23,027 nt of DNA, from the IMG/VR virus record IMGVR_UViG_3300027985_000247, positions 1 through 23,027 of that record. The stretch is one strand, 5' to 3'. Shown one piece after another: positions 11 to 23,027 of this stretch. The DNA is from a virus. The stretch's first letter is position 1. Each line of letters starts with the position of its first letter. A program made the position numbers and the translations under genes. The notes below the pieces were generated by a model. That model was given only the letters and a program-made list of their open reading frames with translations. It made no database searches and was not told the DNA's origin.

Positions 11-1045
11 ATGGCGTGGGCAATCCGACAGCCAGGTATTCAGAAGGCTGCTAAGAAAAAGATCAAAAAGAAGACTACTTCCAAGAAAAAGAAGTCGTCT
101 AACAAGAAGGCGATTGATGCAGCCAAGCGCAAGGTAGCCAAGAAAAAGAATAAGAAGGTTACCAAGAGCAAGGTGAATAAAAAGAAAGCTACAAAGGCTG
201 CAAAGCGTAAGGTAGCCAGTAAGAAGAAGGTTACTAAGAAGGGCAAGGCTCATAAGGCTGCAAAGCGTAAGGTAGCCAGTAAGAAGACTACCAAGAAAAA
301 GACTTCTAAGCAGAAGAAAGCTCAGAAGGCTGCAAAACGTAAGGTTGTGAAGAAGCAGCCTCTTGGTGATCCTAAACCTGTTTCTCAGGAAAAAGAAAAA
401 GAGCCTATGCCTGAGATTCCCGTGGAACCTCGGATTGGGATTGATACTCACCTTCCGCAGCCTGATATTAATAACCCGGTGAGTAATTTCACTGGTCGTT
501 TAATGCTGCATACAAACTATGAATTAGATAAGGCCGAGGCTGACGCCCAGCTGGATTATCAGAATGCGTTGGCGGCCTCTAAGGGTAACCTTGATTCTGC
601 TGAAATTGCATATGCTAAGAGCCGACAGGACCTTACCCGAGATATGCGTGAGCGTAGGGGTTCACTGAACTCTAACATGGCGTACCGAGGTTTGGCGTAC
701 AGCGGTATTGCAGCAGGTAAGAAGCAGGAACTTGAAACTGATGTTGCCCAGCAGCAGAACGCAATTGAAGCACAGCGTAGTGCCGCACGTTCTCAGTATG
801 ATACGAACAGCGGCTCTTACATGGCAGCAGCACGTTCACGGTTGAACCGACAGAAGGCAGATGTTACTGCTCGCCGCCGGAACTACACGGTGGACTTGGC
901 CAATAACGGGGTTCAGATGTCCGGTACCCGCCCTGTCGATGGCGGTGTTACTATGATTAACCCGACTCCCCCTTGGCCGGGTGCTACTCCTTTGAAGCCT
1001 CCGACGAGTGCCTCTCGCATTCCTACGCTTTGGGAGAAGAAATAA
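11..1045 (+). CDS. Lysine-rich coiled-coil virion protein (probable ejection/internal protein)
   Basis: A 344-aa protein starting at ATG 11, with only ten bases of upstream sequence visible. Residues 13 to about 118 are a histone-H1-like tail made of Lys, Ala, Thr and Ser, with four copies of an AAKRKV motif. Residues about 165-290 are rich in Ala, Gln, Arg and Glu and look like a coiled coil, with a segment RGLAYSG of the kind I have seen in phage internal virion proteins. The C-terminus is Pro-rich. It overlaps the next gene by one base (TAATG), and that gene has the same architecture, so the two may be paralogues. From context (followed by a giant virion protein and an M23 peptidase) I infer an internal virion or ejection protein whose basic tail could contact packaged DNA. 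No enzymatic motif is seen. Function is inferred from composition and position only. Confidence 0.75.
   Translation: MAWAIRQPGIQKAAKKKIKKKTTSKKKKSSNKKAIDAAKRKVAKKKNKKVTKSKVNKKKATKAAKRKVASKKKVTKKGKAHKAAKRKVASKKTTKKKTSKQKKAQKAAKRKVVKKQPLGDPKPVSQEKEKEPMPEIPVEPRIGIDTHLPQPDINNPVSNFTGRLMLHTNYELDKAEADAQLDYQNALAASKGNLDSAEIAYAKSRQDLTRDMRERRGSLNSNMAYRGLAYSGIAAGKKQELETDVAQQQNAIEAQRSAARSQYDTNSGSYMAAARSRLNRQKADVTARRRNYTVDLANNGVQMSGTRPVDGGVTMINPTPPWPGATPLKPPTSASRIPTLWEKK
194..286 (+). repeat. 33-bp perfect direct repeat, 60-bp period, inside the lysine-rich gene
   Basis: Positions 194-226 and 254-286 are identical over 33 bases, exactly 60 bases apart. Each encodes the AAKRKVASKK segment. Diverged copies lie around 117-140 and 325-345. 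The 20-residue period suggests tail growth by slippage or unequal recombination. Confidence 0.85.
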
Positions 1046-2934
1046 TGCCTAGTCGTGATAAGATGCTCGAACGTGCTAAGAAATCCGCAACCAAGAAAAG
1101 TAGTAGTAGCAAAAAGAGCAGCACTAAGGCTTCTGGCAGCGGTGGTGGAAGTTCGTGGACTAGTGCCATTGGGTCGTTTTTAAAGCTTATTGGGGGCGGC
1201 GGCGGTGGCGGTAGTTCTTGGGGCGATGAGAGCGTTAAGAGTAAGAAAGCTAACAAGAGTATCGAAAAAACGAAAAAGTCGAAGACGAAGAAAAAGACCA
1301 GATCGTCGATGCCTTTTATGGGGCAGCAGATTATTAGGAAGAAGGGGGAGGAAGAAAAGAAGAATAGGAAGAAGGCTGTAAAGGCCGCAAAGCGTAAGAT
1401 TGACAAAGCAAGGAATGCTCTTAAAAACCAGACTACTAAGAAGAAGCAGGACGCAGAAGCTAAAAAGAAGGCTGCTGCGGCAGCGAAGGCTGCTAAGCGT
1501 AATGCAAACAAGAATAAGAATAAGAAGAATAATAATGGTACCAGTACGAAGCCTACTAAGGTCACCACTGTTAAGCCTAAGACCACTACCACTACTGTTA
1601 AGCCTAAGACTACTACGACACAGAAACCTACGACTACTGCGCAACAGCCTACGACACAGCAGCCTCGGTCTGATTCGCTGATGGACAGGGCGCGTATGCT
1701 TACTGAGACAGCATTCTCGCCTAATTTTGCTACTATTGATGCGGCACGTATTGCTAACGAGAATACGTACCGTGGTCATGGTGACCAGCGTATTCAGGAG
1801 TTGAACCGCGCTCTCGGTAGTATTCAGGGTGCGGGGCAGGTTACTGACAAGACACTCGGACAGTACCAGCAGGAGACTGACCAGAGTTACCAGCAGGCGC
1901 AGCAGTTTGCGCAGCAGCAGCAGCAGGTTTCTGCTCAGCAGCGTAATACTACTAACAGTAACATGCTGAGTAATTTGCAGGCTGAGTTGCAGGCGCGTGG
2001 ACTTAATGCGCATTCTCAGGATGCTATGGTTCGTGAAGCGCAGACGAACCAGTCTTCCTTGATGGATGCTATTAACGCTTCTGGTAACTCCGCTATGGCT
2101 ATGCAGCGACAGAATGCTGGCGACCTGATGACTACATTGCGCTCTCAGGCAACTATGCAGACTGCCGGAGACACGGAGCGCGCTAAAGCTGCCGGGCGTA
2201 GTGACTTGCAGGGTATGTATAACCAGTATCAGCAGCAGCGTTTGGGCCTTGATTCGCAGGAGGCTCAGGCTGTCGCCGAACAAGGTAAGTACTTCACTAA
2301 CACTTACATGACCTTGGAAGATCAGCAGCGACAGGCGCAGGCAGAACAGGCTGCGCTTGAGATGGAATACGCCTACAAGGGCGCAGTGCTGTCGGAAACT
2401 CAGCGGCATAATATGGCGTCCGAAGCAGGTAACCTTTCAAGGACTAACCTTGACGCTGCTAAATTACAGGCGGATCAGTCTTACAAACAGGCGCTTCTTA
2501 AGTTGCAGCGCGGTGAGTTGAGTCTTAAGCAGGAAGAGGCTTTACTTAAAGCACAGCAGCAGGCAAACAGTTACCTGAACGGCGGAAGCAGCGGCAGCAC
2601 TAAAACTGCCACTAAAGGTTACAACGCTGCTAATCAGTATGCTCTGGATGCTATCAGTTCTACTGGTTTGTTCAGCGGTGATGTGTCGGCTAGACTGGCT
2701 GCGGCTATTAAGAATTTCGAGCCTGAAATGGGGAATAGCGGTCAGAGGTATGCGCGCGCATCTACGGATTGGTACAACCTGCTGAATGGCGGTGGTGAGC
2801 GGGGGGACCTCGACAGGTATCTTACGACTATCGTCGCGCAGGGCGGTGTTCCGCAGAATCAACTTGCAGTTGCTAAGAATGTGCTGTCGAATATTCTGAA
2901 GCAGTATAGCCTTATTGCTGGAGGTAAAGCGTGA
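1045..2934 (+). CDS. Second lysine/glutamine-rich virion protein (probable ejection protein)
   Basis: 629 aa from ATG 1045, chosen because it overlaps the upstream stop as TAATG and has a GGGAGAAG ribosome site just before it; the frame is open further upstream but without such signals. Order: Ser/Lys-rich N-terminus, a Gly-rich linker near residues 30-55 (a run of seven Gly), a long Lys/Ala region with AAKRK motifs (about 100-165), a Thr/Lys/Pro/Gln low-complexity linker (about 170-205), then a roughly 350-residue Gln/Ala-rich helical region with LQARGLNAHSQ, matching the RGL...S element of the upstream protein. The C-terminal 80 residues are more globular. No enzymatic motif is visible. It ends with a GTGA overlap into the giant gene. 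By position it resembles the mid-sized ejection proteins of podoviruses; this is inference. Confidence 0.75.
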   Translation: MPSRDKMLERAKKSATKKSSSSKKSSTKASGSGGGSSWTSAIGSFLKLIGGGGGGGSSWGDESVKSKKANKSIEKTKKSKTKKKTRSSMPFMGQQIIRKKGEEEKKNRKKAVKAAKRKIDKARNALKNQTTKKKQDAEAKKKAAAAAKAAKRNANKNKNKKNNNGTSTKPTKVTTVKPKTTTTTVKPKTTTTQKPTTTAQQPTTQQPRSDSLMDRARMLTETAFSPNFATIDAARIANENTYRGHGDQRIQELNRALGSIQGAGQVTDKTLGQYQQETDQSYQQAQQFAQQQQQVSAQQRNTTNSNMLSNLQAELQARGLNAHSQDAMVREAQTNQSSLMDAINASGNSAMAMQRQNAGDLMTTLRSQATMQTAGDTERAKAAGRSDLQGMYNQYQQQRLGLDSQEAQAVAEQGKYFTNTYMTLEDQQRQAQAEQAALEMEYAYKGAVLSETQRHNMASEAGNLSRTNLDAAKLQADQSYKQALLKLQRGELSLKQEEALLKAQQQANSYLNGGSSGSTKTATKGYNAANQYALDAISSTGLFSGDVSARLAAAIKNFEPEMGNSGQRYARASTDWYNLLNGGGERGDLDRYLTTIVAQGGVPQNQLAVAKNVLSNILKQYSLIAGGKA

Positions 2935-5900
2935 CCGCGTTAACTCCCGGTACGGTTGCGTGGTTCAACCACTTTACCGCCGAGAACACTAAAGAGATGA
3001 GGGCTATTAAGCCCCTGTCGTTTAACTACTTAGCCAAGTCATATGTTATTGATATTCCCAATACTCCTAATCTTCGTGAAGAGTTTGAGAAGACTGTTCG
3101 TAAACAGTATGATAAAGCTAATAGGTTCTCATCGGAAATTGGTGGCTTTGACGGGGCTGCTTTTAATTCAAGCCTTTTGAAGCAGGACCCAACTTTTGGA
3201 CTGTTTGCGGGTGCTCAGGGTACTAGTGCTCCCGGTTCTGGTACTAGTGTTTATAGGTCTAGCGATAATGTTAACCAAGCTTTGAAGCGTAATCAGACGC
3301 TTTGGGATCAGATTGTTTCTTTCGGTAGTGATACCGGAAAGCGCGCAATCACTACGCTGGCTTGGATCGGCGACCAGATTTCAAGACTTGAGTATTCCAA
3401 CAACGCTATGCACAATGTGTACGTTCAGCGTGCGAAGCAAGCCGGCTCTGCTGGCGGTAGTGATATCACTCTTGGTGAGCACCTTGCAGCATGGACACTT
3501 CCTTGGATCAATACTGTAACTCCTGCGTGGGTGTTTGACGATGAGGTTAGGAACGCCAAGTTCGACGGGCTCTTCCTTCGTAGTAAGATTTCAGGACAAG
3601 AACTCTTAGAGAGCGAATACGAGAACTTCGCAGAAATGTCAGGGTTTGCTAAAGGCAGCCTTGGCTTCTTCGTTGATGTTGCCCAGGACCCGCTGACGTA
3701 TATCACTATTGGTTACGGAAGTGTTGCTAAGGTTATCGGTGCTGGTGCTGCTCGGGCTGTCGGAAAGAAAGCAGTTTCCGACGCCCTGTTTAAGCGTACC
3801 TTCTTTAGTGCTGAAGGACGTGCTGCTGGCCGTTCTGCGGCTGTCGGGGCACTTCGTTCTAGCGCTATCAGTAAGGGCGGGAAGAAGATTGCAAAAGGCG
3901 CTAAGTCGTCTATTAAGAAAGATCCGACAAGGAAAGCAATCTTCGAAGAGGCTTCTAATGATGCCTTCGATCAGTTGAAGGCTAAGATTGCTGTCGATAT
4001 CAGTGATGATCTTAAAGGTCTGCGTTTAGCAGCGAAATCTATTAGCCAGAAGCATGCTTTGAAAGCCTGGAATGCTTATGCTGCTGGTGTGCATGGCGGA
4101 GACCTAGCCGGTGCCGCTAAGGCTATTGATAAGTTATATCTCAGTAGTCTTGAAGATGCTAAGAGTATGATTAAATCGCGCAACCCGATTTTGTTTGACT
4201 TCCATGCTCGTAATGCTGGTAAGTCTTTCCGGTATGGGAATCAGGGCGCTGCCTTTAAGATTGCTGATGATTTCGATACCTTCCTTGATGAGTTCGCTCG
4301 CGTTGTAATGCCGAAGTTAGACCTCACTGAGCGTACCATGCGTGACTTACGTCTTCGTCGTGGTAAGCTTATGCAGATGGATGCAGAGGCTAAGAACTTC
4401 ATTAACAACTTCAACAAGCTGTTGAAGGATCACGTTGCAGGTTTCTCTCCCGATGGGCGACCGCCGAGCCCAGAGTTTGATGCTCTGCTACAGAGCGGTA
4501 GCGCGCCGTATGTTAACCCCGTTGGCGTGACGCCTGATTGGGCAAAGCCTAAGACAGCCGCAACAAAAGCAAAAGAAGCAAAAGAAGCAGCAGACAAGGA
4601 GGCCCTCAATAGGGTTGCAGATGCGCCAGAAGTTCCAGAAGCGCCAATAACTAAGACGAACGATGATGTTGTTGATGAGCGTCTTGCTGAGTTAATGGCC
4701 GAGCAGGAAATCAACGATAACGCGGTTAAGCAGGGGTTGGCTCAGTTACACGAAGAGAATATGTTGCCTACGCATCAGGTTCTCGGTAACTCACCTACTA
4801 CTGCTGCTGTCGCTAAGTCGTTAGAAGAGACGTTCCGACAGCGCCTCGACGAAGTTGTTGATGCCTATAAGACGAAGGCAGCAGATCACGCTCAGCACGA
4901 CAAGGGACAGAAGAAAGCCCCTGTCGTCTATTCTCGTGAGGATAATGCGCGTTTAGCCGAGGCTATCTATAACGCATACATTGAGGCTGCTCACAGACTT
5001 CGTGCAGAACAGCACGCTAATAACCCCATCGTGATGGCTGATACGCTCAAGTCTCACGCTGCTGAGGTTATCAATACTCTTACTGCTGATGCGAAACATC
5101 AGGTATTGAGCGATCTTTCTATGCGTTTCGGCAAGTCGCTTCCTGAGGCTATTCCCTTCAAAGGTGAGTTTACTGATCCTGATTTCTTTAGGAATATTAA
5201 CGCCCACAACGGCGGTAAGACTGCTGAGGACAGTTTCAACACCCTTGTTCGCTTCTGGCTTGAACGAGGAACCTCTAGCAACCACACCAACCAGCGCAGC
5301 AGTAGTTTAATCCCAAACCCGGAAGCCTTACAGAAACCGGGTTTCACTGCTGATGATGTTTTCGGGGTACCGAAAACTACTGATCCTCGTGAAGTTATCA
5401 GTCTGCTCAATACGGCAAACGCACCTGAGAAATTTGTTTTAGCGGTTAAGACGCTCTTTAATGCTAAAGCGAAGATGCGTAAGATTGCAGATACGAATGA
5501 GGAACTCGGTGGCATTTCGGGCATGCGTGTGAATAACCACACCATGCTGGATTACTTCCTTCACGAAGACACTAAGCTGGAATTCCGCAACGAATTCGGC
5601 AAAGCTGTCGGGAATATGTCGGTATTTGGTTTCAATGAAGTCAATCAGCCTAGTAAGGCAGTGCTGCTTGCTGTCGAAGTTTTTAAAGATTTCCAGGCTA
5701 AGTATCCGACCAGTCCCTTAGGTAACACTATTAAGCATATGCTTCTTGGGGACGACCTTCAAAACTTGCAGGGTGTTGATGGGCTTTTGTCGTTCCGTAA
5801 GGCATTAGATAGTCTTGGCACCCATGCTGCACTTACCCGACAGGCAGTTCGTGGAGATTTCCAGGGTAGGATTCCTGATGCTGGTTGGCGCGTTTCTATG

Positions 5901-8900
5901 TTCAATCAGATTTGGGGAAACAAAGCTATCCATGAGAAACTGACTAATGCTATTCATATTGGCATTCTGTCGGAAGTCTTGAAGCCAGGTCATAGGTTCA
6001 GTGCTACTAAGATTGCTGAACTTATCAATGACTATACTAGTAATCCTGCTATCGCTGATATGCTTTACAAGGCTGCTAAGTTAGAAGAACGGGCTGCTGA
6101 GGTAAAGACCGTGCGCAGGGCTCAGGACGCCCAGCAGGCCGCTCAGGAAGCCGAGGCTGTTCGACAGGCAGGGCGAGACGCACCGCCTATCGCTATCCAG
6201 CATGAGAATGCTACATTTGATACTGTCACCATTAAAGGTAAGCAGGTTAGGCATAAGCGTACCCCTGTCGTGATTGACGGTAGGACTGTCGGTTACGTCG
6301 AAGAGACTGGCCGTAAAAACGGTGCTGTTGTGTTCCACGATCTGCGAGACAATCAGCGCTACCCGGTCAAATCAAATCGTGGTCCCGGTGCCAGCGGTAA
6401 CAAGCCCGGTGAACGCATTGTTAACGATGCGGCTGTCGGAGAAGTTCAGCGTGCCGATAACGCACACAAAGGCTTACAGAAGCAGATTGAAGACTTACTC
6501 GGAACCCCGCGTAAGGTTGGAGATACTGCTACACCTGCCAACAAAGTTCGGGAACTGATTAAAAACGTCTACGATGAATATGGCGACGCCGAGCAGGTTC
6601 GCCGTGCAGCGCGTGAAGATACAGAGTATCGTGCGCAGGAGTTTAAAGAAGCAGAAGAGATTGGTGCCCCTGCGGCTGCTGAACATCAGGCACAGTTAGA
6701 TGAGGGCGCCCAGCGAGTTGCTGCTAGTCAGCAGGCTAGTAAAGAAGCCCGACAGGCAAAGCGCGCCGCTGCTTCCGATAAGGAAATGCGTGCTGCTGCC
6801 TATGAAGAGGGGGTACAGCCGGCGCCTGTCGAGAGTGTTGAACAGGTTATTGCTGACAGCACTCCGAATCGTCCTTACGACAAGGATACCGTTAAGGCAG
6901 TGCAAGACCTGTCGGACAAGTTAGATACTCCCGAAACCAGAGCTTTCATTGCAGGTAGGTTAGCCTCGGCAGCAGAGAACCTTACTGCCGACCTCTTCTT
7001 CTATCAGGAGAAGATGGCAGATGAGTTAAACAAGTTCCGACTCGGTATGGGTGCTTCCTTAAAGGTTGCTGGTATCCCTGTTGCGCCGCTGCCGTACTTT
7101 ACTAACCCGTTCCAGACCTATGCTGGGCTTACGGTCTTGAATGAGCAGCGTGGCCGCGTGCGTAACTGGGTCACTAAGGTGCTTGCAGAGCGGCCTAATA
7201 TTAGTAACACCATGGCAAAGTTCCGTCGTCCGAGTTCAAACCTTGACTCGATGTTGAATGAATTACGTAAGACCTCAGCCAACAACGGTTATGGTGCCTT
7301 GTTGGCGATCCACACTGAGATTGATGAGACGTGGAAGCCTATTAGGAACCAGAGTTACCGTAGCCAGGTTACTGAGGCTTTCTTCTCTAAGGGTGCTGAA
7401 CTTCCTAAGGAGCTGGAAGAGACTGAGAATCGTCTGCGCGATATTGCTGCATGGCTCTCTCTGAACACTGACGGTGATCCTCAAATCATTCTGTCGAGGG
7501 TCCGTGCTCTTAACAGTCTGATGCCTAAGCGTTTCAGGTTGCCTGACGCAGCGTTCTCCAACAAGGCAAATAACGACATTGCATACACGCGCGAATGGCT
7601 TATCGAGGTTTCTCGTGGGTTAGCAAGGGATAACATTACTCGTAATGCTTTTGCTGGCAAGGCTTTGAAAGACCTTGATCTGCCGAAGTTCGAGTACGCC
7701 TTACAGCACGCTAAGGCTAAGTTGCAGGCCCGTGAGGATACTGTCAACTCTATGCTTGCTAATTTCTCCGTTGCTGCTGAGTACGGAGAGGGCGGCCGAC
7801 AGCGCAGGGCCTTCATTGCTCAGATGAACAAGAGTATCCTTGACGAGAACATGCATTATGTTCAGGTTACGGATGAGATTATTCCTAGGACCCATATTCC
7901 GACCCATATGCGGAATTACGACTACTACGTTCGTGCGGACTACGCTGTCGAAATGAAGAAGATGATGGCGTACATGTCTGACTCGTATGTGGCAGACGCT
8001 AAGTTACTGAACATGGGCTTCTGGTCCTCGGTGCTTAACTACTGGAAGGGTATGGTGACGACGTTCAACATTCCCAAGTTCCATGTTGCTAACGCCATGT
8101 CGGATACTTTCTTAGCAAGTCTTGATGGCGTTACTAATCCTAAGATGTACCACAAGGGTTTCACGGTTATCAGGAACTCGCACGAAGCCTCCAAAAAGAT
8201 TTCGGCTAATCCTGAACTCTACACTGGGATTATGGAAGAGGCTATCGACACGCCATTCCCGTCTAGGGCAATGCGTGTCGGGCAACGACAGGACAACATG
8301 CCTAATATCCCGGTGCGGGAAGAGGGCGGTCCTGCTCCGCTTATTAGCACCATTAGTACGCGAGACAATTTAACAGTGCATGTTGATTCTGACATGTATA
8401 TGAATGCCTACGTTGCCCGTGGTGTCGGACAGACGCAGGTTACGAACATCCTCTACAAAGGTGTTCCTGCGTCCCGTGATACCGCAGCAATGGATATGGT
8501 TATGGGTGTGTTCGACAAGGTGAATGATTGGAGCAATATGCGGGAGGATGGCTTCCGCATGTCTCACTTCATCCACGCTGTCGAAGATGAGGCACGTAAG
8601 GGATCTCTTACGCTTGATGAGATTTTTGACAAGGCTGCTGAACGAGTTATCAGATATCACTTCGACTACTCTGACGTGAGTGATATCGAGAAGCATCTTG
8701 TCGGTAAATACATCCCCTTCTATAAGTGGTCGAGGAACATTGTTCCGCTGACGCTTAACCTGTTCTTCACCAACCCCAAGGCATTCACTATCCCTCAAGC
8801 ATTCAACGAAAACATGTCTCAGGTACTTATGCCTCAGCAGAGGGATCAGTACGGTAATGAGATCCCGTTCGATGCTGTGGTTCCTGATTACATTGCATCT

Positions 8901-9494: not shown

Positions 9495-10159
9495 GTGACT
9501 TTCTTGAATATTTGAAAAAGTCTCGTGGCGAAGGTAGTCATCATCAGAAGTTTATGACGGCACGTCGTGGCGGTCTTGATGAAGCACAAGAACAACTTAT
9601 CAAGAACTCTGAGGCACCTATTATTTCTGGTAGTAGTGCCGCTAACAGTAATGATGATCTTGTTTATCGTGGTGGTCAAACTAAAGAGCAAGTAATACAG
9701 TCTGCGGCTAATAGCGCTAGTACCTTCAAGAAGGGTACTAATGTTCAGGCTGTTCCGATGAACCTGAGCAAGAAAAAAGTGCGCCCGACAGCCGGGAGAG
9801 TTACACAGGGGTATGGTGGTAACAAGCCAAACTATGCTGCTGGTAGACATACTGGTGTTGACTTCGGAGGTAAGATCGGTGATGCCATTAAAGCAGCAGC
9901 TAGCGGAACTGTTACTTTTGCAGGAAGCTACGGCTCCTATGGAAACGCCATCAAAATTAAGCAGGTTGACGGAACCACCGCCTTGTACGCCCACCTGTCA
10001 GGATACAACGTTAAAGCCGGACAAACCGTTAGCGCCGGAACTAAGATCGGGAAACTCGGTAACACGGGTAACTCAACCGGACCTCATTTACACTTTGAAG
10101 TGCGAGGAAGAGATCAGTACGGCGGAGATATTAACGCGTCGAGTTGGTTGAGCAAATAG
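9491..10159 (+). CDS. M23-family peptidase, virion-associated peptidoglycan hydrolase
   Basis: 222 aa from GTG 9491, overlapping the preceding stop as GTGA. The N-terminal 95 residues are low complexity and polar with no signal peptide. Residues 100-222 are a lysostaphin/LytM-type M23 domain: GRH120TGVD124FGG (zinc ligands H120 and D124), H168 in YAHLS, and H199-L-H201 in the HLHFEV signature, so all expected metal and catalytic residues are present. M23 enzymes cut peptide cross-links in peptidoglycan. Because it is the last gene of the virion block, directly after the giant protein and without an export signal, I infer local wall digestion during DNA entry, although a role in lysis cannot be excluded. 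The stop codon is followed at once by the bidirectional terminator. Confidence 0.9.
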   Translation: MSDFLEYLKKSRGEGSHHQKFMTARRGGLDEAQEQLIKNSEAPIISGSSAANSNDDLVYRGGQTKEQVIQSAANSASTFKKGTNVQAVPMNLSKKKVRPTAGRVTQGYGGNKPNYAAGRHTGVDFGGKIGDAIKAAASGTVTFAGSYGSYGNAIKIKQVDGTTALYAHLSGYNVKAGQTVSAGTKIGKLGNTGNSTGPHLHFEVRGRDQYGGDINASSWLSK

Positions 10160-10210
10160 AAAAACCCCCCTGTCGGATAAGTGGCTAACTCTTCCGACAG
10201 GGGGGCTTTT
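10160..10210. terminator. Bidirectional intrinsic terminator between convergent operons
   Basis: Perfect 13-bp stem: CCCCCCTGTCGGA (10165-10177) pairs with TCCGACAGGGGGG (10193-10205) around a 15-nt loop. A-tract on the left (10160-10164) and CTTTT on the right give U-tracts in both directions. It starts right after the M23 stop and separates the rightward and leftward gene blocks. Each arm contains one copy of the CTGTCGG motif. Confidence 0.92.
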
Positions 10211-11264: not shown

Positions 11265-11471
11265 TCAGTATCCTAACTGCTCTTTTCTTTCTTCCTTGAA
11301 GTGCCTGTCGCATAACCAGATAATAACGAGCGCTTCGTTCTCTAGTTTGCTCTTTAACTTAGGACTGCATTTCCAACAATGTCGTCTATCCCACCATTTG
11401 TCGAAAATACGCATTATCAATAAAGCGGCAGCGCATCCGGCTGAAACTGCAAACCATGATTCCCATGTCAT
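11265..11471 (-). CDS. Small single-span membrane protein with a CxxC
   Basis: 68 aa from ATG 11471, chosen because it overlaps the polymerase stop as ATGA; the frame is open further upstream but inside the polymerase gene. A hydrophobic helix covers roughly residues 6-22 (FAVSAGCAAALLIMRIF), followed by a basic, Trp-rich stretch with H-C-W-K-C and a charged C-terminus (RHFKEERKEQLGY). One transmembrane segment with a cytoplasmic basic tail is likely. Could be a membrane anchor for the replication machinery or a lysis accessory; no family recognised. Confidence 0.65.
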   Translation of the reverse strand: MTWESWFAVSAGCAAALLIMRIFDKWWDRRHCWKCSPKLKSKLENEALVIIWLCDRHFKEERKEQLGY

Positions 11472-15111: not shown

Positions 15112-15153
15112 CGACAGGGCCAGCGCAAGAGAGGATTTACGCTGGCCCTGTCG
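15112..15153. other. 14-bp hairpin between ssDNA-binding-like gene and tRNA-Lys
   Basis: CGACAGGGCCAGCG (15112-15125) pairs perfectly with CGCTGGCCCTGTCG (15140-15153), loop 14 nt. It begins eight bases after the stop of the ssDNA-binding-like gene (minus sense) and ends one base before tRNA-Lys. No U-tract, so an RNA-processing site or attenuator is as likely as a terminator. Confidence 0.75.
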
Positions 15154-15163
15154 GGTACTAATT
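15147..15163 (+). repeat. 17-bp exact repeat, copy 1 (partner at 18185-18201)
   Basis: CCTGTCGGGTACTAATT occurs here, spanning the hairpin arm and the end of the ssDNA-binding-like gene, and again identically at 18185-18201 inside the DUF6378-like gene. It extends the CTGTCGG motif by nine further identical bases. Confidence 0.8.
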
Positions 15164-15599
15164 AGAACAGGCTGGCGTTAGCCTGAACGTTACTGTCACC
15201 GCTATGGCCCATAACTAACTTGGTCACGTTGGTGAAGGTACGGCTGCCATCAGCACTCGGCTTGTTCTTGACGGTGATCGTAACCTCGATACCGAGAATG
15301 TCACCTGGCTCAATAGAACGAGCATCCTCATCACTAATGGCAAGGCTCTGAAGACGGCGCTTAAGGAACTGCTTACGCTCATCAGGAAGCCTCGGGTCCA
15401 GATCGAAGAACTCAGAAACAGTCTTACCGCCAACGCTCTCAACATCGTTGAGAACGCGGTACGTGATCTGCCACGAGTTACCGTTCCGGTTATTGGGAAT
15501 GATCTTGCTGTCGGTGATAACGGCGGGGTACACGCCATTAGGAATAGACCAGTCAGAAACCTCAACGTCGTCTAAACCAAGGTCATCCAGGAATCCCAT
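15162..15599 (-). CDS. ssDNA-binding-like protein (OB fold, DUF669-like)
   Basis: 145 aa starting ATG 15599, with AGGA about twelve bases upstream (loose spacing). The pattern IPNGVYPAVITDSKIIPNNRNGNSWQITYRV...GKTVSEFFDLDP, then EPGDILGIEVTITVKN...TNVTKLVMG, is that of small OB-fold proteins found next to Sak4-like ATPases in phages and considered ssDNA-binding. The C-terminus ends hydrophobic (NASLF) rather than with the classic acidic SSB tail, although the region before it is polar. It is 15 bases downstream of the ATPase gene in the same operon. Function as single-strand DNA protector for replication and recombination is inferred from the pattern and neighbours. Confidence 0.72.
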   Translation of the reverse strand: MGFLDDLGLDDVEVSDWSIPNGVYPAVITDSKIIPNNRNGNSWQITYRVLNDVESVGGKTVSEFFDLDPRLPDERKQFLKRRLQSLAISDEDARSIEPGDILGIEVTITVKNKPSADGSRTFTNVTKLVMGHSGDSNVQANASLF

Positions 15600-15614: not shown

Positions 15615-16382
15615 TTACTTATTTAGATGAGTCCACGTTGGACTCATGATTTCATCGGGCAGGGCAGTTACACGGGATTTAGCAAGCACCGTGTTAGATG
15701 GACGAACACGAAGTACGTATTCACCCTTGCCAGTACGCTTGATGTATGCAACGATATCGAAGATACCAGCAACCGTAGCGGCAAGTTTAGGGGTAAGGTC
15801 AGGACGTGAGACTAAGAAACCTGTCTGGTCATCCTTCTCGACCTTAGCATGTGCAGTACAGACAAGGTTCTTTGGAATATCACGGAACGCCGACAGGAGC
15901 ATCCTGAGACGCTGAGTATTCTCTCCGTAAACTCCCCAGTCTGCCTTGTAAACAGGAGCGTTACCTTTGCCTCCGAGAACTTTTAACTGATCGTCAATCA
16001 GGCGTTTCTGTAACTCAGAGATGCTGTCGAGAACAATCGTATCGTACTTATCAAAGGCATGACTCCCAGCCTTCAAGTATTCGATTGCCTTCTCAACCTG
16101 AACCATAGAAACGTACTCTAAAACATCGACCTCATTACCGCGATCAGCAAGAACCCTAGTACCACGCTCAACATCAATGATAAGAGGCTTAGGCGCAGTA
16201 GCAGCGAACGTCGTCTTTCCGGTTCCCGGGTCACCATAGATCAGTACCTTAAGAGTGCCAGAGCCTTCATGGACAGGAGAAATCCTACCCATAATCTTAT
16301 CGAGAATATCATCAACCTGTGTTGGCTGAATCTCAGTAACGGGAGGGTTATCTCCAAGAATAACAACAGGAACATCAACCAT
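15615..16382 (-). CDS. Sak4-like RecA-fold ATPase (phage recombination protein)
   Basis: 255 aa from ATG 16382, overlapping the preceding gene by eight bases with AAGGAAG upstream. Core RecA fold: Walker A G50DPGTGKT57, IIDVERGTRVL after it, Walker B YDTIVLD119S followed by ISELQK. The length and the KPLIIDVERGTR and TAHAKVEKDD segments fit the phage nucleotide-binding/AAA_24 group that includes Sak4 single-strand annealing proteins. Known members promote ssDNA annealing with help from a partner SSB, which here would be the next gene. A Cas4-like exonuclease is two genes upstream, giving a complete recombination set: nuclease, annealer and ssDNA binder. Confidence 0.85.
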   Translation of the reverse strand: MVDVPVVILGDNPPVTEIQPTQVDDILDKIMGRISPVHEGSGTLKVLIYGDPGTGKTTFAATAPKPLIIDVERGTRVLADRGNEVDVLEYVSMVQVEKAIEYLKAGSHAFDKYDTIVLDSISELQKRLIDDQLKVLGGKGNAPVYKADWGVYGENTQRLRMLLSAFRDIPKNLVCTAHAKVEKDDQTGFLVSRPDLTPKLAATVAGIFDIVAYIKRTGKGEYVLRVRPSNTVLAKSRVTALPDEIMSPTWTHLNK

Positions 16383-16728
16383 CTGCTTCTTCCTTTCCTT
16401 TAAGGAGATCCTGTAACGACTTCTCTTCGATTTCTCTTAAGCTGTCAATAGCGTATTGAAGTGCTGCTATAAGTGAGGTTTGAGTGAAGTTTGTATTCGG
16501 ATTAACAGCGAAGCCAATCCCGACAGGAACCGGGTCCCCAGCGTCATTCAACTTAAAGATCGGAGGGGCTAACATCACAAAACCGAGCCCAAAGTGAGCA
16601 AGTGTCATACCTGCAATCTGAGCCAGAGGTTCTGCATGTTCCTTAAAATCATCATCAGACAGAAGGGTAGTCTCAACCCACTGTTCTTTACATTCGGGAC
16701 CGTGCTCATGATCATGGTCGTCACTCAT
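16375..16728 (-). CDS. Hypothetical acidic protein with His/Asp-rich N-terminus, 117 aa
   Basis: Starts ATG 16728 after GGAGG (7-nt spacing), overlapping the exonuclease stop as ATGA. The N-terminus is His/Asp/Glu-rich (MSDDHDHEHGPEC), possibly metal-binding; a short hydrophobic segment (AQIAGMTLAHFGLGFVMLAPPIF) is in the middle; the C-terminus has a helix with EIEEKSLQDLLKGKEE. No family recognised. Tight overlap with the exonuclease and ATPase genes implies a shared role in the recombination operon. Confidence 0.7.
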   Translation of the reverse strand: MSDDHDHEHGPECKEQWVETTLLSDDDFKEHAEPLAQIAGMTLAHFGLGFVMLAPPIFKLNDAGDPVPVGIGFAVNPNTNFTQTSLIAALQYAIDSLREIEEKSLQDLLKGKEEADG

Positions 16729-17603
16729 AATTGAACCTCCGCGGGGTGATTGTATCCGTAAGACTGCTTCTTCTGGAAGTCTTGCTGGACGGCATATTCC
16801 AGCGGAGTTCCCTCCATAGAATAGTCACACAATTGAGCAAAATTACAAGAGCCGCACACCATCTTGTTCAGCAGTGGCGGCGTATCCTGAATCTCTGGCT
16901 CACTAGCACGGAAGTTCAGAATCTCAGTACCTGCTTGGATGTGCTGTCGAATAACAGAACGAACCTTAGCATCTGTCGGGATCACTGCTTCCCTGCGATA
17001 CAATTCATTACCCGGCTTCAACTGTCGGGTACGCAACTGGTTCACGACAGCACCCTTAACGTTCATGCCCTGAGAACGCAGAAGGAACACGTACTTAGGG
17101 AACTGACCGTTCAGCGTTAACTGTTCTGCGGAGAAGAAGTTGTAACTAGACTTGTGATCCCATACATAAATGAGCCCAGTACGCCTATCTCGAACAACAA
17201 GATCAAGGGTACCGGGAAGCCCAATACTGTCGGTCAATTGAGCAACAACTTGCATTTCAACGCCAATGATTTCATAGTGCTCATCATCAACGCCACAGTA
17301 GAAGTCAAAGTAACCAATAACAAGGTCCTTAACAGATCCAAGTTCAGCAACACCCATACTCATATTGGCTGAGGCTGCCTGCATAAACGCCTTCATAGCC
17401 CATTCGCGGGCCTCTGCTTCGTCCAATCCTTCGGACTTAGCGATGTAGTATTCCTCTAACATCGCATGGATAATGTTGCCCTTTGTCAACGGATCACTAA
17501 ACTGCTTGGGCTCAATATCCATGATGAATTCAAAGAAATACTTCCTCCTACACGTAAGCCAGGAAGTTACCTCAGAATTACTAATGTTTCTTGAATCAGT
17601 CAT
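16725..17603 (-). CDS. Cas4/RecB-like PD-(D/E)xK exonuclease with Fe-S cysteines
   Basis: 292 aa from ATG 17603, chosen over GTG 17606 because AAGGA then has a 6-nt spacing. RecB-family motifs in order: H46 in the helix after KGNIIH, D134 in LPGTLDLVV, D149-H-K151 in YVWDHKSS (the E/D-x-K catalytic pair) and Q167-x3-Y171. Four cysteines are placed as in Cas4/AddB clusters: C18 (WLTCRRKYFF) and C250-x2-C253-x5-C259 (CGSCNFAQLC), so a 4Fe-4S cluster is likely. Such enzymes resect DNA ends to make single strands for annealing. It is the first gene after the 17.6-kb promoter and leads the recombination/replication operon. Cas4 proper is unlikely since no CRISPR array or cas genes are present. Confidence 0.9.
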   Translation of the reverse strand: MTDSRNISNSEVTSWLTCRRKYFFEFIMDIEPKQFSDPLTKGNIIHAMLEEYYIAKSEGLDEAEAREWAMKAFMQAASANMSMGVAELGSVKDLVIGYFDFYCGVDDEHYEIIGVEMQVVAQLTDSIGLPGTLDLVVRDRRTGLIYVWDHKSSYNFFSAEQLTLNGQFPKYVFLLRSQGMNVKGAVVNQLRTRQLKPGNELYRREAVIPTDAKVRSVIRQHIQAGTEILNFRASEPEIQDTPPLLNKMVCGSCNFAQLCDYSMEGTPLEYAVQQDFQKKQSYGYNHPAEVQL

Positions 17604-17627
17604 CACTTATCCTTGTCTCTCGCATTG

Positions 17628-17674: not shown

Positions 17675-18076
17675 CTAACGGCAGTCGTCACAAACGAAGC
17701 GAAAGCCCATAGATGGTGGAGGGAAACTCTTTGCTAATGTTGGCTCGGTACATTCATCACACGGGTAGATATGGCTTAACGCACCGATTACTGCGCCGCA
17801 CTCAATACAGTAGAGAAGCCCATCACGATACTCGCGCGACGGGAACTCCCTGTTAGCGTTTGCCTTACACCGACAGGCTTTGAAGCCTAGCCCTTCAACA
17901 ACACGCGCATAGCTTTCATATCCGTCAGCATACGCGCGTGTTGCAAGGGCGCGATCAATCTGTACGATAGGACGTCTAACGCTCTTGTCGCCGCTTAACC
18001 ATAAGCCCGGTACCGGCCACTTACTCTTTGTTCTAGTTCTCGAACTCTTTGTCGTTGTGCGGGAAGATACCGTCAT
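17675..18076 (-). CDS. Zinc-finger-like protein, 133 aa
   Basis: Starts ATG 18076 after GGTGGAG (7-nt spacing), overlapping the upstream gene by 44 bases. The N-terminus is Ser/Thr/Arg/Lys-rich and probably disordered. Then come paired cysteines: C-R-C in FKACRCKA, C-x2-C in LYCIECG, C-x2-C in YPCDEC, and C-x2-C in the final FVCDDCR, suggesting two zinc sites. The KACRCKA...CIECG part resembles a rubredoxin/zinc-ribbon knuckle. Family not recognised. It is the last gene before the operon promoter, and no clear terminator follows. Confidence 0.65.
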   Translation of the reverse strand: MTVSSRTTTKSSRTRTKSKWPVPGLWLSGDKSVRRPIVQIDRALATRAYADGYESYARVVEGLGFKACRCKANANREFPSREYRDGLLYCIECGAVIGALSHIYPCDECTEPTLAKSFPPPSMGFRFVCDDCR

Positions 18077-18362
18077 TTGAAAGCTCCACCATTAACCCTG
18101 CGTATCCTGCAATGTCTACAACATTATCATGCTTGGGGTTTGCCTTGTCTCGCGCGCACTTAAGAAGTACCATCATGCGGGCGACCTGTCGGGTACTAAT
18201 TGGCATGTCAAGTTCCACAGACCAGAGGGCTGCGATATCGGCGAAGCAATCCTCAGCGTTACCGTATTGGTCCTGTCGATCATGAGTAATAACCTGAATT
18301 GCCTCACGAAGCACAGCCTCGCGGTACGCGATGTTCTCAACGACCTGATGGGTAGTTGCCAT
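18033..18362 (-). CDS. DUF6378-like phage protein, 109 aa
   Basis: Starts ATG 18362, sharing one base with the MazG-like stop (TAATG). The pattern LREAIQVITHDRQDQYGNAEDCFADIAALWSVELDMPISTRQVARMMVLLKCARDKANPKHDNVVDIAGYAGLM follows a small phage family I know as DUF6378: a dRxxqYG motif, an IAxLWs helix, a KxaR motif, and a final D-x-aGYa helix. The function of the family is not established. The helical pattern and adjacency to a MazG-like gene suggest a nucleotide-related role, but that is inference. Confidence 0.8.
   Translation of the reverse strand: MATTHQVVENIAYREAVLREAIQVITHDRQDQYGNAEDCFADIAALWSVELDMPISTRQVARMMVLLKCARDKANPKHDNVVDIAGYAGLMVELSNDGIFPHNDKEFEN
18185..18201 (+). repeat. 17-bp exact repeat, copy 2 (partner at 15147-15163)
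   Basis: Same CCTGTCGGGTACTAATT as at 15147-15163, here in the coding sequence of the DUF6378-like gene (reads ISTRQ on the minus strand). Confidence 0.8.
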
Positions 18363-18688: not shown

Positions 18689-19304
18689 TAATACCAACCT
18701 CTTCCTTAGACTGGATAACTCCGCCGCCCACGACACCCGATTTCAGAGCCTTATTAGCATGCTTCAAGTCCTGCGTGTCGGGTAAGAACCCGTAGACTGT
18801 CTGGTAAATCTCAGCCTTGTGCGGGTCATTCTTAGCATGGATTAAATTATGACATGAGTGACACAACAAACCGATGTTGTCTCGGTCATTATTCATGACG
18901 TTATAGTCGTGGTGATGACGCGACTGCGCCTTCCCGGGAAGTGTACCCTGTCGGACCCCACAGCCGTCAATCTGCACTTTCATGAAGTTAGGCAGGGCGT
19001 CTTTTTTACCTGCTAGATCGCATGGAAGGCGGTTACCGTTACCGTCAATCAACGGGTAGAGGCTGGCGGCGCGTTTACGCCCGGTGCTTTGCGGATCTGT
19101 TACAGATTGATCGTCTTTATACCTGCGGGTAACGGTACGGCTGTCGGGTTCGGTAGGTTCCAGTCCAAGTGAGTCTCCAATAGCACTATTAGGTACCGGC
19201 GCAACAGTGTCATGTGTGCAGTCACACTGTAAATGCAACGTCACGAACCCGGCGCATCCGTTATGTTGCCCTCTCCGACAGGGCCAGCAGATGTTACTCG
19301 CCAT
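18672..19304 (-). CDS. HNH endonuclease with N-terminal zinc knuckle
   Basis: 210 aa from ATG 19304 with AAGGA five bases upstream. The N-terminus has C6-x2-C9-x2-G-x-H14-x2-C17 and then C27-x-C29-x-H31, a zinc-knuckle pattern that I associate with actinobacteriophage HNH proteins. A linker of about 40 residues follows, then the HNH core: C95 and C115, RHHHDYN (H130-H132), DNIGLLCHSCHNLIH with N143, C148-x2-C151 and H152/H156, ending in N159. All ββα-metal residues are present, so it should be active. It may be a packaging-associated nuclease, or a homing enzyme; its place within an ordered operon with overlapping starts argues against a recent homing insertion. Confidence 0.88.
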   Translation of the reverse strand: MASNICWPCRRGQHNGCAGFVTLHLQCDCTHDTVAPVPNSAIGDSLGLEPTEPDSRTVTRRYKDDQSVTDPQSTGRKRAASLYPLIDGNGNRLPCDLAGKKDALPNFMKVQIDGCGVRQGTLPGKAQSRHHHDYNVMNNDRDNIGLLCHSCHNLIHAKNDPHKAEIYQTVYGFLPDTQDLKHANKALKSGVVGGGVIQSKEEVGINESDQ

Positions 19305-19390: not shown

Positions 19391-19798
19391 TTATTCCTTT
19401 TCTATCGGTTCCAAACCGGCTAATACATCATTACGGGTAGTGTAGGGGATAACCTTTTTGAGCATCTGTCGGGGTGTTACTAGAGGCCATGCGCGGAAGA
19501 TACGTCTTTGTTCATCTGCATCATATCCTATGATACCGCATTCTCCCATTTCAAGTAAGGAGGTATTAACAGCGGCATCATATCCCCAAGTACCTGTTAA
19601 GGAGAATGCTCTGTTGAGCACTGTAACGGGGCATGTGCCTCCGTGTTCAGATACATGGCGATAGATTTCGAAAAACATCTCTGCTTCATTGAGAATCAAT
19701 AACCCGTTAAGTGTTAGGCGTCCTCTTTCTTCTCCGTTTTCTCCTGTAATGATTCCCGTTTCTTTTAATTCTTCTCTCATTGCGCTACGGCGGGGCAT
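19391..19798 (-). CDS. Hypothetical winged-helix-like protein, 135 aa
   Basis: Starts ATG 19796-19798 after GAGGAATAG. The central part (FFEIYRHVSEHGGTCPVTVLNRAFSLTG...AAVNTSLLEMGECGIIGYDADEQRRIFRAWPLVTP) reads as helix, turn-helix, helix and a two-strand wing, which is the layout of winged-helix DNA-binding domains, but I cannot place it in a family. It is the first gene after the tRNA-cluster terminator, so it needs its own promoter or read-through; I see no convincing promoter in the 70 bases before it. A transcription regulator is a guess from the fold pattern. Confidence 0.6.
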   Translation of the reverse strand: MPRRSAMREELKETGIITGENGEERGRLTLNGLLILNEAEMFFEIYRHVSEHGGTCPVTVLNRAFSLTGTWGYDAAVNTSLLEMGECGIIGYDADEQRRIFRAWPLVTPRQMLKKVIPYTTRNDVLAGLEPIEKE

Positions 19799-19859: not shown

Positions 19860-19905
19860 AAAAACAATAAAGGCGGCGTAGGCCCGACAGGGCCGTAGCC
19901 GCCTT
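19860..19905 (-). terminator. Intrinsic terminator of the tRNA cluster
   Basis: Two-part hairpin: AAGGCGGC/GCCGCCTT (8 bp), a GTA/GTA internal loop, GGCCC/GGGCC (5 bp) capped by GACA; one CCGACAG motif is at the tip. On the minus strand it is followed by TATTGTTTTT. It starts 17 bases after the tRNA at 19922-19990. Confidence 0.85.
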
Positions 19906-20386: not shown

Positions 20387-20420
20387 CCCGACAGGGGAAC
20401 TTACTCGGCCCCCTGTCGGG
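20387..20420. other. CTGTCGG-type hairpin next to the 5' end of tRNA-Leu
   Basis: CCCGACAGGGG (20387-20397) pairs perfectly with CCCCTGTCGGG (20410-20420), 11 bp, loop 12 nt. It ends three bases before tRNA-Leu. The next 100 bases (20421-20523) show only a weak ATATGGG/CTCATAT dyad and no gene. Confidence 0.75.
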
Positions 20421-20599: not shown

Positions 20600-20660
20600 C
20601 CTGTCGGGGAAAGTTTACCGGGGTCACTAAGAGATAGGTGATTATTCTTTCCCCGACAGG
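20600..20660. other. 14-bp CTGTCGG-type hairpin after the Acb2-like gene
   Basis: CCTGTCGGGGAAAG (20600-20613) pairs perfectly with CTTTCCCCGACAGG (20647-20660), loop 33 nt. It begins three bases after the stop of the Acb2-like gene and separates it from the tRNA cluster. Little U-tract follows on the minus strand (TTAAAGG), so termination may be partial. Confidence 0.75.
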
Positions 20661-21353: not shown

Positions 21354-23027
21354 TTACTCACCTTCGATCAGATACTTCTTCAATGCTTCTATATCGTCAA
21401 TAGCGGTGTCGAATCCTTGAACAAGATTCTTCTTGGACTCTACTAGACCTTCCAGCCACCCGTCAATGGTATGCTCCATGACGATCTTGTGAATGGTTAC
21501 GTCTTCGGTTTGGCCGATACGATGGACGCGATCAGTTGCCTGTTCTTCTCTACCGAATGACCATTCGGAATCGAGCATAATGAGTTCAGTTGCTCGGGTG
21601 AGTGTAACTCCCACCCCGCCCACTCGATAGTTAGCCAAAACAACTTGCCACTTCGCGTTATCTGAACTTGTGTGCCGTCTATCAAAGTCAAGGATAATTT
21701 CGTCTCTAGTGCTTTCTGGAGTATCGCCATCAAGAACGATAGAGGAAATTCCCATTGCTTCACAGCGACTTTGCAACTCTCGCAAAGGAGCTTTGAATTG
21801 TGAGAACACAACGCACGTTGCTCCGTCTGTGAGTCCTCCTTCACATAGATCCGCAAGTAGCCCATTTCCGTTCCTGTCGAGAACGTAATCCAACTTCTGA
21901 GACTCTTCGATATCCAACTTCATCTGGACGATACCTTCATCATCCTTGAGTTCGATACCGGCAGGCCAAGTTTCGATCTGACGAAGACGGGTGTAAATAG
22001 CGATCATTGCAGCAGCAGTAATAGCCTTGTCTGCCGACAGGCGGATCGCTCCCCACTTACGCATCTCATTACGAGCGCGAGCCTGCTCTGGGTAGTTGTC
22101 AGTGTTGAGTTCGATGATGTGGAGTTCTTCATGCTTACCGGGAAGTGTAATACCTGCATCACGCTTGGTACGACGGATGTAGAGATTACTGATTTTCTTA
22201 GCAAGGCTTTCCAGTCCGCCTGCTGCGAAGGACCACTTACCAGTATAGATATCCTGCTTACAGTATGCTCTCAGGAAGTAGAGTTCACTATTGAAGTGGT
22301 CAGGATCAACAAGTGTCAGCAGTGAGAATAAATCTTGCGGCTTATTCAGGATTGGTGTACCAGTCATCAGAATCCTGAAAGGCACGTACCTGTTGCTTGG
22401 CTTATCCCATCGGTATTGGTAACCGTTTGCTACGTCAGAGTTATACTCTGGCATATCGATAGGGTAGTCTTTACCTGTCTGCGCGAGCCCTCTAGTGGTT
22501 ATGTATGTATTAGTCTTTCGTTCCTTGATAGCGTGGGCTTCATCAAGAATCATCACATCGAACTGTAGAGACTTAAGGTCCTCTAGAAGTGCCTTGTCTC
22601 TTCGCCAAGCTTCATAGTTGATAATGACAAGGAAGTCTGAAAGTTCGTTGAGTGTATCAATAAGGAAGCGGCGAGTTGTTTTTGGCTGATTACCCATAAG
22701 TACTGGACTCCGGTCTGTCCAGAGATGGACTTCACGAAGAACGTTACGTAGAAGTGGGGCTGGGCAAACATAGAGGATCTTACGTCCGCATGGGTACGGA
22801 ATCCCCTTGACTTTATCCTTGGGATCGTAACCGTACGGGTTATCTGGACGCGCATTCTTAGTTGCCTCTGCAATCAGGTCGCAAGTAGCAAGAGCAGTAA
22901 GAGTCTTACCAAGCCCAGGGGCGTCAGCAAGGATCATTGCACGCTGAATTGTGATCTTCTTAGCGGCTTCGAACTGGTGCTTGAAGGCGGCAGCGAACCA
23001 CTTAGCAGAAACTAGTGCTTCTTCCAG
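21354..23027 (-). CDS. SNF2-type superfamily 2 helicase/translocase (5' end beyond the window)
   Basis: The frame is open to the window end with protein-like sequence (KWFAAAFKHQFEAAKKITIQR) before the first ATG at 22937, so the gene continues outside and the coding start is not seen. Motifs: ADAPGLGKT (I), ILYVCPAPLLRN (Ia), MILDEAH (II), LMTGTPILNKPQDLFSLL (III), CVVFSQFKAPL (IV), NYRVGGVGVTLTRATELIMLDSEWSFGREEQATDRVHRIGQTEDVTIHKIV (V and VI, split here by the SNF2 R-x2-RiGQ signature). It fits the SMARCAL1/HARP-like phage group, which remodels forks or unwinds branched DNA. It is the most upstream gene visible of the leftward block. Confidence 0.93.
   Translation of the reverse strand: MEEALVSAKWFAAAFKHQFEAAKKITIQRAMILADAPGLGKTLTALATCDLIAEATKNARPDNPYGYDPKDKVKGIPYPCGRKILYVCPAPLLRNVLREVHLWTDRSPVLMGNQPKTTRRFLIDTLNELSDFLVIINYEAWRRDKALLEDLKSLQFDVMILDEAHAIKERKTNTYITTRGLAQTGKDYPIDMPEYNSDVANGYQYRWDKPSNRYVPFRILMTGTPILNKPQDLFSLLTLVDPDHFNSELYFLRAYCKQDIYTGKWSFAAGGLESLAKKISNLYIRRTKRDAGITLPGKHEELHIIELNTDNYPEQARARNEMRKWGAIRLSADKAITAAAMIAIYTRLRQIETWPAGIELKDDEGIVQMKLDIEESQKLDYVLDRNGNGLLADLCEGGLTDGATCVVFSQFKAPLRELQSRCEAMGISSIVLDGDTPESTRDEIILDFDRRHTSSDNAKWQVVLANYRVGGVGVTLTRATELIMLDSEWSFGREEQATDRVHRIGQTEDVTIHKIVMEHTIDGWLEGLVESKKNLVQGFDTAIDDIEALKKYLIEGE

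Follow-up and report, generated by a model that had tools for sequence, protein, structure and literature searches.

Short DNA words dispersed across phage genomes as predicted recognition sites of archaeo-eukaryotic-type primases

Primase start sites are known for few enzymes, mostly as very short motifs, and whether genomes are shaped to supply them has been hard to ask. The closest described case is the polymerase of phage NrS-1 (NrSPol), an archaeo-eukaryotic primase (AEP) primase-polymerase with a helix bundle domain, whose measured template sites are an 8-base site, TTTGGTTA, and a shorter GTGG/GTGA site (PMC8718748). A dispersed excess of the site is not described in the passages of that paper that were consulted. 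Another related system is the primase RepB' of plasmid RSF1010, which acts with the helicase RepA and reads a specific initiator with a GTG start motif (PMC4434180), but RSF1010 has a single ssi site per strand. T7 gp4 and DnaG also appear to use short template words to set primer starts, but these are probably trinucleotides, and the enzymes probably have a different (TOPRIM) fold. Asymmetric short words that are strongly over-represented on both strands also occur as DNA uptake sequences and Chi sites.

We examined a phage genome segment (hereafter the window, the whole 23,027-nt stretch of IMG/VR virus record IMGVR_UViG_3300027985_000247) in which the 7-mer CTGTCGG is about eighteen times more frequent than expected by chance. 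Exactly 46 copies were found (26 on the + strand and 20 on the - strand), against 2.6, 2.6 and 2.5 expected with Markov models of order 0, 1 and 2, respectively. A model of order 3 gave 6.2, because that null already contains the inflated 4-mers, and a maximal-order null hides the word, since its sub-words CTGTCG (82 copies against 10.6 expected) and TGTCGG are inflated too. The reversed word was found 9 times. Single-base variants at the core positions of CCTGTCGG occurred in 0-2 copies against 25 for the word, and the fuller site is S-CTGTCG-R. The copies of CTGTCGG are as follows:

25..31, - strand, CTGTCGG
622..628, - strand, CTGTCGG
847..853, - strand, CTGTCGG
2389..2395, + strand, CTGTCGG
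3757..3763, + strand, CTGTCGG
3841..3847, + strand, CTGTCGG
4835..4841, - strand, CTGTCGG
5605..5611, + strand, CTGTCGG
5837..5843, - strand, CTGTCGG
5967..5973, + strand, CTGTCGG
6286..6292, + strand, CTGTCGG
6433..6439, + strand, CTGTCGG
6749..6755, - strand, CTGTCGG
6909..6915, + strand, CTGTCGG
7796..7802, - strand, CTGTCGG
9442..9448, + strand, CTGTCGG
9785..9791, - strand, CTGTCGG
10170..10176, + strand, CTGTCGG, arm of a 13-bp inverted repeat with 10194
10194..10200, - strand, CTGTCGG, arm of a 13-bp inverted repeat with 10170
10948..10954, - strand, CTGTCGG
11627..11633, - strand, CTGTCGG
11753..11759, + strand, CTGTCGG
12221..12227, + strand, CTGTCGG
14102..14108, + strand, CTGTCGG
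14161..14167, + strand, CTGTCGG
14963..14969, - strand, CTGTCGG, arm of an 11-bp inverted repeat with 14990
14990..14996, + strand, CTGTCGG, arm of an 11-bp inverted repeat with 14963
15148..15154, + strand, CTGTCGG
15508..15514, + strand, CTGTCGG
15890..15896, - strand, CTGTCGG
16520..16526, - strand, CTGTCGG
16973..16979, + strand, CTGTCGG
17022..17028, + strand, CTGTCGG
17227..17233, + strand, CTGTCGG
17870..17876, - strand, CTGTCGG
18186..18192, + strand, CTGTCGG
18948..18954, + strand, CTGTCGG
19141..19147, + strand, CTGTCGG
19275..19281, - strand, CTGTCGG
19466..19472, + strand, CTGTCGG
19884..19890, - strand, CTGTCGG, in the loop and inner stem of a hairpin
20388..20394, - strand, CTGTCGG, arm of an 11-bp inverted repeat with 20413
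20413..20419, + strand, CTGTCGG, arm of an 11-bp inverted repeat with 20388
20601..20607, + strand, CTGTCGG, arm of a 14-bp inverted repeat with 20653
20653..20659, - strand, CTGTCGG, arm of a 14-bp inverted repeat with 20601
22034..22040, - strand, CTGTCGG

We first asked whether the excess could result from chance, codon usage or a recurring peptide, as 13 copies encode Arg-Gln in one frame. Of the 46 copies, 39 were located in coding sequence, whereas 1000 shuffles of synonymous codons gave a mean of 2.5 +/- 1.6 and a maximum of 9. In addition, all six classes of frame and orientation were used, and 7 copies were found in about 1.9 kb outside the genes. These data reject an origin in codon usage or a peptide and support the original prediction that the DNA word, not a peptide, is selected; all 17 frame assignments given in that prediction were right. 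The prediction further offered uptake sequences, Chi-like sites, or recognition sites for a phage DNA-binding or priming protein, and of these possibilities the priming protein is the one favored by the comparative evidence described below.

The proposed reader of the word is encoded in a replication and recombination module on the - strand, the relevant parts of which are:

13221..15014, - strand, predicted AEP primase/RepA-type helicase fusion (597 aa)
14400..14981, - strand, predicted AEP catalytic domain (aa about 12-205)
14106..14399, - strand, predicted helix bundle domain (aa about 206-303), the template-reading domain in other AEPs
13335..14063, - strand, RecA-fold helicase domain (aa about 318-560)
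11468..13261, - strand, family A DNA polymerase
15162..15599, - strand, single-strand DNA-binding protein
15615..16382, - strand, Sak4-like recombinase
16725..17606, - strand, Cas4-like PD-(D/E)XK exonuclease

The fusion protein matched PHROG 3123 (1.2e-70) and, in its C-terminal part, Pfam AAA_25 (1.8e-22), and its AlphaFold model had a pLDDT of 87.7. The helicase half resembled RSF1010 RepA both by structure (Foldseek, 1nlf, 3.9e-12) and by sequence (hmmsearch, 1g8y, 3.4e-17). As the search with the full-length model was swamped by helicases, the N-terminal part (aa 1-305) was modeled alone (pLDDT 91.2, pTM 0.80). The only PDB hits below E 0.001 were AEP primases, namely phage S-2L PrimPol (6zp9, 1.6e-9) and RSF1010 primase RepB', free and bound to its initiator DNA (3h20, 4.3e-8; 3h25, 5.3e-6). 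The AEP motifs hhhDhD/E, sxH and hD/E (PMC4538821) were also present: the catalytic domain contains FVWSEFD, STNDHVHCYW and GADKSGWD...LRPPETRNHK, with D98 (in VWSEFD) and D156 invariant and H127 conserved in 90% or more of the sequences. The adjacent domain has helices at 218-299 in the model and conserved R244, S245, K278 and R282. Thus, the folds of both halves are shared with RepB' and RepA, which are two proteins in RSF1010 but one here. However, the Pfam RepB_primase model did not reach its cut-off; for the RepB' family (PF16793) there was no match in the window, and the best relatives scored 21.1 and 19.7 against a cut-off of 24.3. The window protein also had no match to the NrSPol helix bundle model (PF22763), and it differs from NrSPol in having a RepA-type helicase half and a separate family A polymerase. 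The other proteins were assigned by Pfam DNA_pol_A (2e-62) for the polymerase, PHROG 378 (6.8e-6) for the single-strand DNA-binding protein, PHROG 124 (3.5e-53) for the recombinase and PHROG 1218 (1.8e-39) for the exonuclease.

We then searched for relatives of the primase-helicase. Single-sequence queries to viral contigs found almost nothing, but a profile query found 80 loci. Interestingly, nearly all phages that share this protein had their own dispersed word, with a common 5' part and a variable 3' part. The words included CTGTCGG, CTGTAGG, CTGTAGC(G), CTGTAAAG, CTGTGGG, CTGTGGCG, CTGTCGC and CTGTAAAGG, as well as GTGTGG in distant kin, the last being seen in phages of Serratia, Microbacterium and Mycobacterium. 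In 70 loci, the best STGTNNN 7-mer had a median z of 7.7, with 86% above 4.5, although ten of the 70 showed only a weak word. The top 7-mer of all contained [CG]TGT in 49 of 70 loci (6% expected), across host phyla. The words followed the primase tree (18 changes against 29.4 when shuffled, 0 of 200 shuffles as low), and the window and two other loci (designated L024 and L025), all with CTGTCGG, formed one clade (100/100). The sites themselves turn over, giving a mixed answer on the site conservation proposed as a test in the original prediction, but they were kept about twice as often as matched control 6-mers (35% vs 18%). Where the word differed between sister phages, few sites had switched in place, too few to decide on this mode of change.

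The occurrence of the same word family in phages of Arthrobacter, Microbacterium, Gordonia, Mycobacterium, Curtobacterium, Brevundimonas, Serratia and Pseudomonas, where it tracks the phage primase and not the host, argues against a host-linked signal carried by the phage, such as a DNA uptake sequence, a host Chi or protection by a host system. The layout of the word (dense, on both strands, with inverted pairs used as hairpins) does recall uptake sequences. However, other phages of the same host strain lack the word family (Goodman against YuuY on Microbacterium foliorum, Pumancara against Jasmine on Arthrobacter sp. ATCC 21022), and two bacterial genomes that contain distant homologues held the word no more often than its reverse. 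Although the host of the window phage is unknown, we consider this explanation very unlikely. A Chi-like role is also not supported by orientation: no clear strand bias by replication direction was detected, and both orientations occurred along all genomes.

A second possibility is that the word is the site of another protein of the same module, such as Sak4, the Cas4-like exonuclease with the SNF2 helicase acting Chi-like, the SSB or the RuvC-like resolvase. These genes are co-inherited with the primase in most relatives, and Chi sites are asymmetric 7-8-mers too. We compared eight control phages that have a Sak4-like recombinase (seven with a Cas4-like exonuclease, four of these also with family A polymerase in the stretch) but other primases, and none had an STGTNNN word at the top. 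That is, phages with Sak4 and Cas4-like exonuclease (some with RuvC and PolA) but a PF09250-type or other primase lacked the word family. Identity of the AEP domain predicted the same word better than that of PolA, Sak4 or exonuclease (AUC 0.81 vs 0.70, 0.64 and 0.59 for the first five letters). However, PolA, Sak4 and exonuclease are mostly co-inherited with the primase, and for six or seven letters 8-10% of bootstraps placed the AEP advantage over PolA at or below zero. In addition, the helix bundle domain, expected to read the site, predicted the word less well than the catalytic core. Another reader within the module is unlikely, but somewhat less so than the other alternatives.

An independent anchor came from a second group of phages, whose primases are like NrS-1 polymerase. 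Six of six carried TGTGG(T/G)(T/C)A, with TGTGGTTA, TGTGGTCA or TGTGGGCA as the top 8-mer, which is close to the measured NrS-1 sites. Four of these primases passed and one nearly reached the cut-off of PF22763, and the sixth was a homologue by tblastn. The NrS-1 genome itself was not found among the hits in the collections searched. Phages of this group also carry Sak4 and Cas4-like genes, which speaks for another reader within the module. More generally, AEPs with known sites use CCTG, GTG or GTGG (PMC8718748), which are contained in CCTGTCGG or GTGTGG.

The same pattern in the second group also argues against the possibility that the word is bound by a phage repressor, condensing or packaging protein (stoperator-like or nucleoid-like). 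Stoperators of cluster A mycobacteriophages appear to be numerous, asymmetric and different between phages, and some relatives encode Lsr2- or HTH-like proteins. However, stoperators would be expected to be mostly intergenic and in one orientation to transcription, whereas most copies of CTGTCGG lie inside genes, in both orientations and all frames, and no DNA-binding regulator shared by the whole set was seen in the annotations. This reading is very unlikely.

Taken together, these data suggest that CTGTCGG is probably the template-strand recognition site of the phage's own AEP-type primase, the N-terminal half of the primase-helicase. In the absence of a priming assay for this protein, it is inferred that the primase reads the word, where initiation occurs and that the word has a role in lagging-strand synthesis. 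In this model, as the fused RepA-type helicase unwinds the fork, the primase meets the word on single-stranded template and makes a primer at or just 5' of it, which the family A polymerase extends. Selection would keep the word frequent on both strands (one CTGTCGG per about 0.9-1.15 kb per strand and one core CTGTCG per about 0.56 kb) so that priming is frequent wherever the fork passes, and in kin the 5' part CTGT stays while the 3' part drifts together with the primase. A 7-letter site is, however, longer than the trinucleotides that DnaG or T7 gp4 are expected to use, and the lack of a clear strand bias also speaks against this model. The sites were slightly more evenly spaced than random (mean z -0.44, SE 0.13).

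It is also likely, though less certain, that phages that replicate with AEP-type primases in general write the recognition word of their primase over both strands of their genome, many times above chance, and that the word co-evolves with the enzyme, in which case the site specificity of an uncharacterized AEP primase, and its changes through evolution, could be read from genome sequence alone. Not every AEP phage shows the effect, as cyanophage S-2L, the nearest solved AEP, had no single dominant word. No description of such an excess was found in the openly accessible literature searched. The signal, seen in two separate groups of phage primases, yields direct predictions for dozens of uncharacterized primases, a way to map lagging-strand starts and possibly sequence-addressed primases as tools, and the natural series of switched words point to the residues that read DNA.

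Finally, inverted pairs of the word with 10-16 bp arms were observed, suggesting a second use, such as terminators.

Genes on the + strand (1-10.5 kb) of this 23,027-base virus record include a 2187-aa protein and an M23 peptidase, whereas genes on the - strand (10.8-22.9 kb) form a replication and recombination module comprising a RuvC-like resolvase, family A DNA polymerase (PolA), primase-helicase, SSB, Sak4, a Cas4-like exonuclease and an SNF2 helicase. The nearest annotated phages, which share about 30% protein identity, are MW202795 from Manatee Spring, Microbacterium phage Shocker, Cellulosimicrobium phage DS1 and Arthrobacter phage Jasmine. Three genes showed additional features:

2931-9494 (+), the 2187-aa protein, with no Pfam or PHROG family; only a 440-aa stretch resembles a large protein of Cellulosimicrobium phage DS1
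20664-21050 (-), a protein with an Acb2/Tad1 hairpin domain (Pfam PF24729, 3.4e-15), a domain known from phage anti-CBASS/Thoeris sponges
21354-22937 (-), the SNF2-type helicase, whose C-terminal part resembles ZorD and DpdE of defence systems (7e-35, 1.2e-30), here in a phage replication module

CTGTCGG was detected 46 times, 26 on the + strand and 20 on the - strand, against 2.5 expected. The core CTGTCG was present 82 times against 10.6, and CCTGTCGG 25 times against 0.6. Substitutions inside TGTC were almost absent, so the word is sharp, while the flanks prefer C or G before it and a purine after CTGTCG. When synonymous codons were shuffled within each arm, only 2.5 +/- 1.6 copies remained in coding sequence, compared to 39 observed. 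All frames and both orientations were used, and spacing was near random. A null of maximal order hides the signal because the sub-words are themselves inflated.

The key result is that each relative has its own word. An unbiased ranking of 6- to 8-mers gave CCTGTAGG for MW202795 (28 observed vs 1.1 expected), CTGTAAAG for Shocker (45 vs 0.1), CTGTCGC for DS1 (47 vs 7.4) and CTGTGGG for Jasmine (47 vs 3.3). Shocker also contained a second strong word, TTAGGGTA (15 vs 0.1), and direct terminal repeats of several hundred bases that carry four CTGTAAAG each. More distant kin gave GTGTGGCC for YuuY (39 vs 3.0), GTGTGG for Serratia phage Serbin (62 vs 14.3) and GGTGTGG for Mycobacterium phage NoShow (34 vs 8.4), and weaker forms were found in others. 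We further searched viral contigs with a profile of the primase-helicase, which brought 80 loci. Across the 70 loci of 8 kb or more that were scored (annotated phages included), the best STGTNNN 7-mer had a median z of 7.7, and the top 7-mer overall held [CG]TGT in 49 of 70, with 6% expected, although some loci are near-copies and these are not 70 independent cases.

To examine which protein is linked to the word, we mapped the words on the primase tree and found that they are clustered (18 changes, compared to 29.4 when shuffled). The window and its two closest kin (58% identity) form a clade, all members of which use CTGTCGG. Among 40 dereplicated loci, identity of the AEP domain was the best predictor of a shared word, with an AUC of 0.81 for the first five letters, against 0.70 for PolA, 0.64 for Sak4 and 0.59 for the exonuclease. 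However, the replication genes are co-inherited, and for longer words the lead over PolA is less sure. Eight phages chosen for Sak4 or the exonuclease but with other primases showed no STGTNNN word at the top. Two of them share a host strain with phages that do have such a word (Goodman and YuuY; Pumancara and Jasmine), which also speaks against a host cause. Other words were noted in Streptomyces phage Keanu, which has a PF09250-type primase and contained GGGTAACA (10 vs 0.3) and CTGTTACC (8 vs 0.4).

Sequence searches of the N-terminal half of the primase-helicase failed or stayed below cut-offs. However, an AlphaFold model of aa 1-305 (pLDDT 91.2, pTM 0.80) matched, as the only hits below E 0.001, the AEP domain of cyanophage S-2L PrimPol and the RSF1010 primase RepB', free and bound to its initiator DNA. 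The C-terminal half matched the RSF1010 helicase RepA. The protein thus looks like a fusion of the two RSF1010-type activities. RepB' reads a specific initiator with a GTG start motif (PMC4434180), and known AEP template motifs include GTG, CCTG, GTGG/GTGA and TTTGGTTA (PMC8718748). A word of 7-8 letters is unusual for a primase, though not for NrS-1 polymerase, and not every AEP phage shows the effect, S-2L being one that does not.

Interestingly, one control, E. coli phage KS_S4, had a word of its own, TGTGGTTA (15 vs 0.7), and its primase matched the NrS-1 polymerase helix bundle model PF22763. Five more phages of that group gave TGTGGTTA (13 vs 1.0), TGTGGGCA (9 vs 0.2), TGTGGTCA (9 vs 0.8), TGTGGGCA (8 vs 0.2) and TGTGGTCA (9 vs 0.7). 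Three of these five primases pass the PF22763 cut-off, one (from locus L115) lies just below it, and the fifth (from locus L121) is a homologue of the KS_S4 primase with a weak match to another AEP model. NrS-1 polymerase itself was measured to use TTTGGTTA and GTGG/GTGA. A word predicted from genomes thus agrees with a measured site in a second AEP group. In addition, a very strong word, CCCCGGC/GCCGGGG (78 vs 8.2), was present in corynephage BFK20 (NC_009799), whose gp43 primase-polymerase has been studied, and is a candidate site for that enzyme.

How the word may function is inferred, as the window is a single genome fragment of a phage without a known host and without an assay of its primase. 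The common 5' part CTGT fits a start region, and the variable 3' part fits a recognition region that drifts with the enzyme; NrS-1 polymerase starts mainly at the first base 5' of its site (PMC8718748). Per strand, there is one CTGTCGG per 0.9-1.15 kb and one core per about 0.56 kb, which is probably close to the usual length of lagging-strand fragments. Words lie on both strands without clear bias, as expected if forks pass in both directions or if both strands are primed. Sites turn over but are kept more than matched 6-mers (35% against 18%), so density rather than position seems to be selected.

The word may also have a second use. Four inverted pairs in the window have arms of 11-14 bp and fold well below shuffles:

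10160-10210, inverted pair of the word (10170/10194)
14955-15000, inverted pair of the word
20382-20426, inverted pair of the word
20596-20665, inverted pair of the word

The pair at 10170/10194 lies just after the peptidase gene between an A-run and a T-run and looks like a terminator in both directions. Relatives have similar pairs with 10-16 bp arms, and over all loci inverted close pairs outnumber direct ones 53 to 26, though the total is as expected. These pairs may represent mere reuse of the word or may be part of the initiation signal, as in the hairpin of RSF1010 ssi. Five copies of the word were also found in a noncoding stretch with tRNA genes, and a tRNA-Lys is located elsewhere in the window:

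19799-20663, noncoding stretch with five copies of the word
19921-19990, tRNA gene with an odd anticodon loop, within this stretch
20309-20383, tRNA-Leu, within this stretch
near 20527, a further tRNA-like sequence, within this stretch
15037-15110, tRNA-Lys
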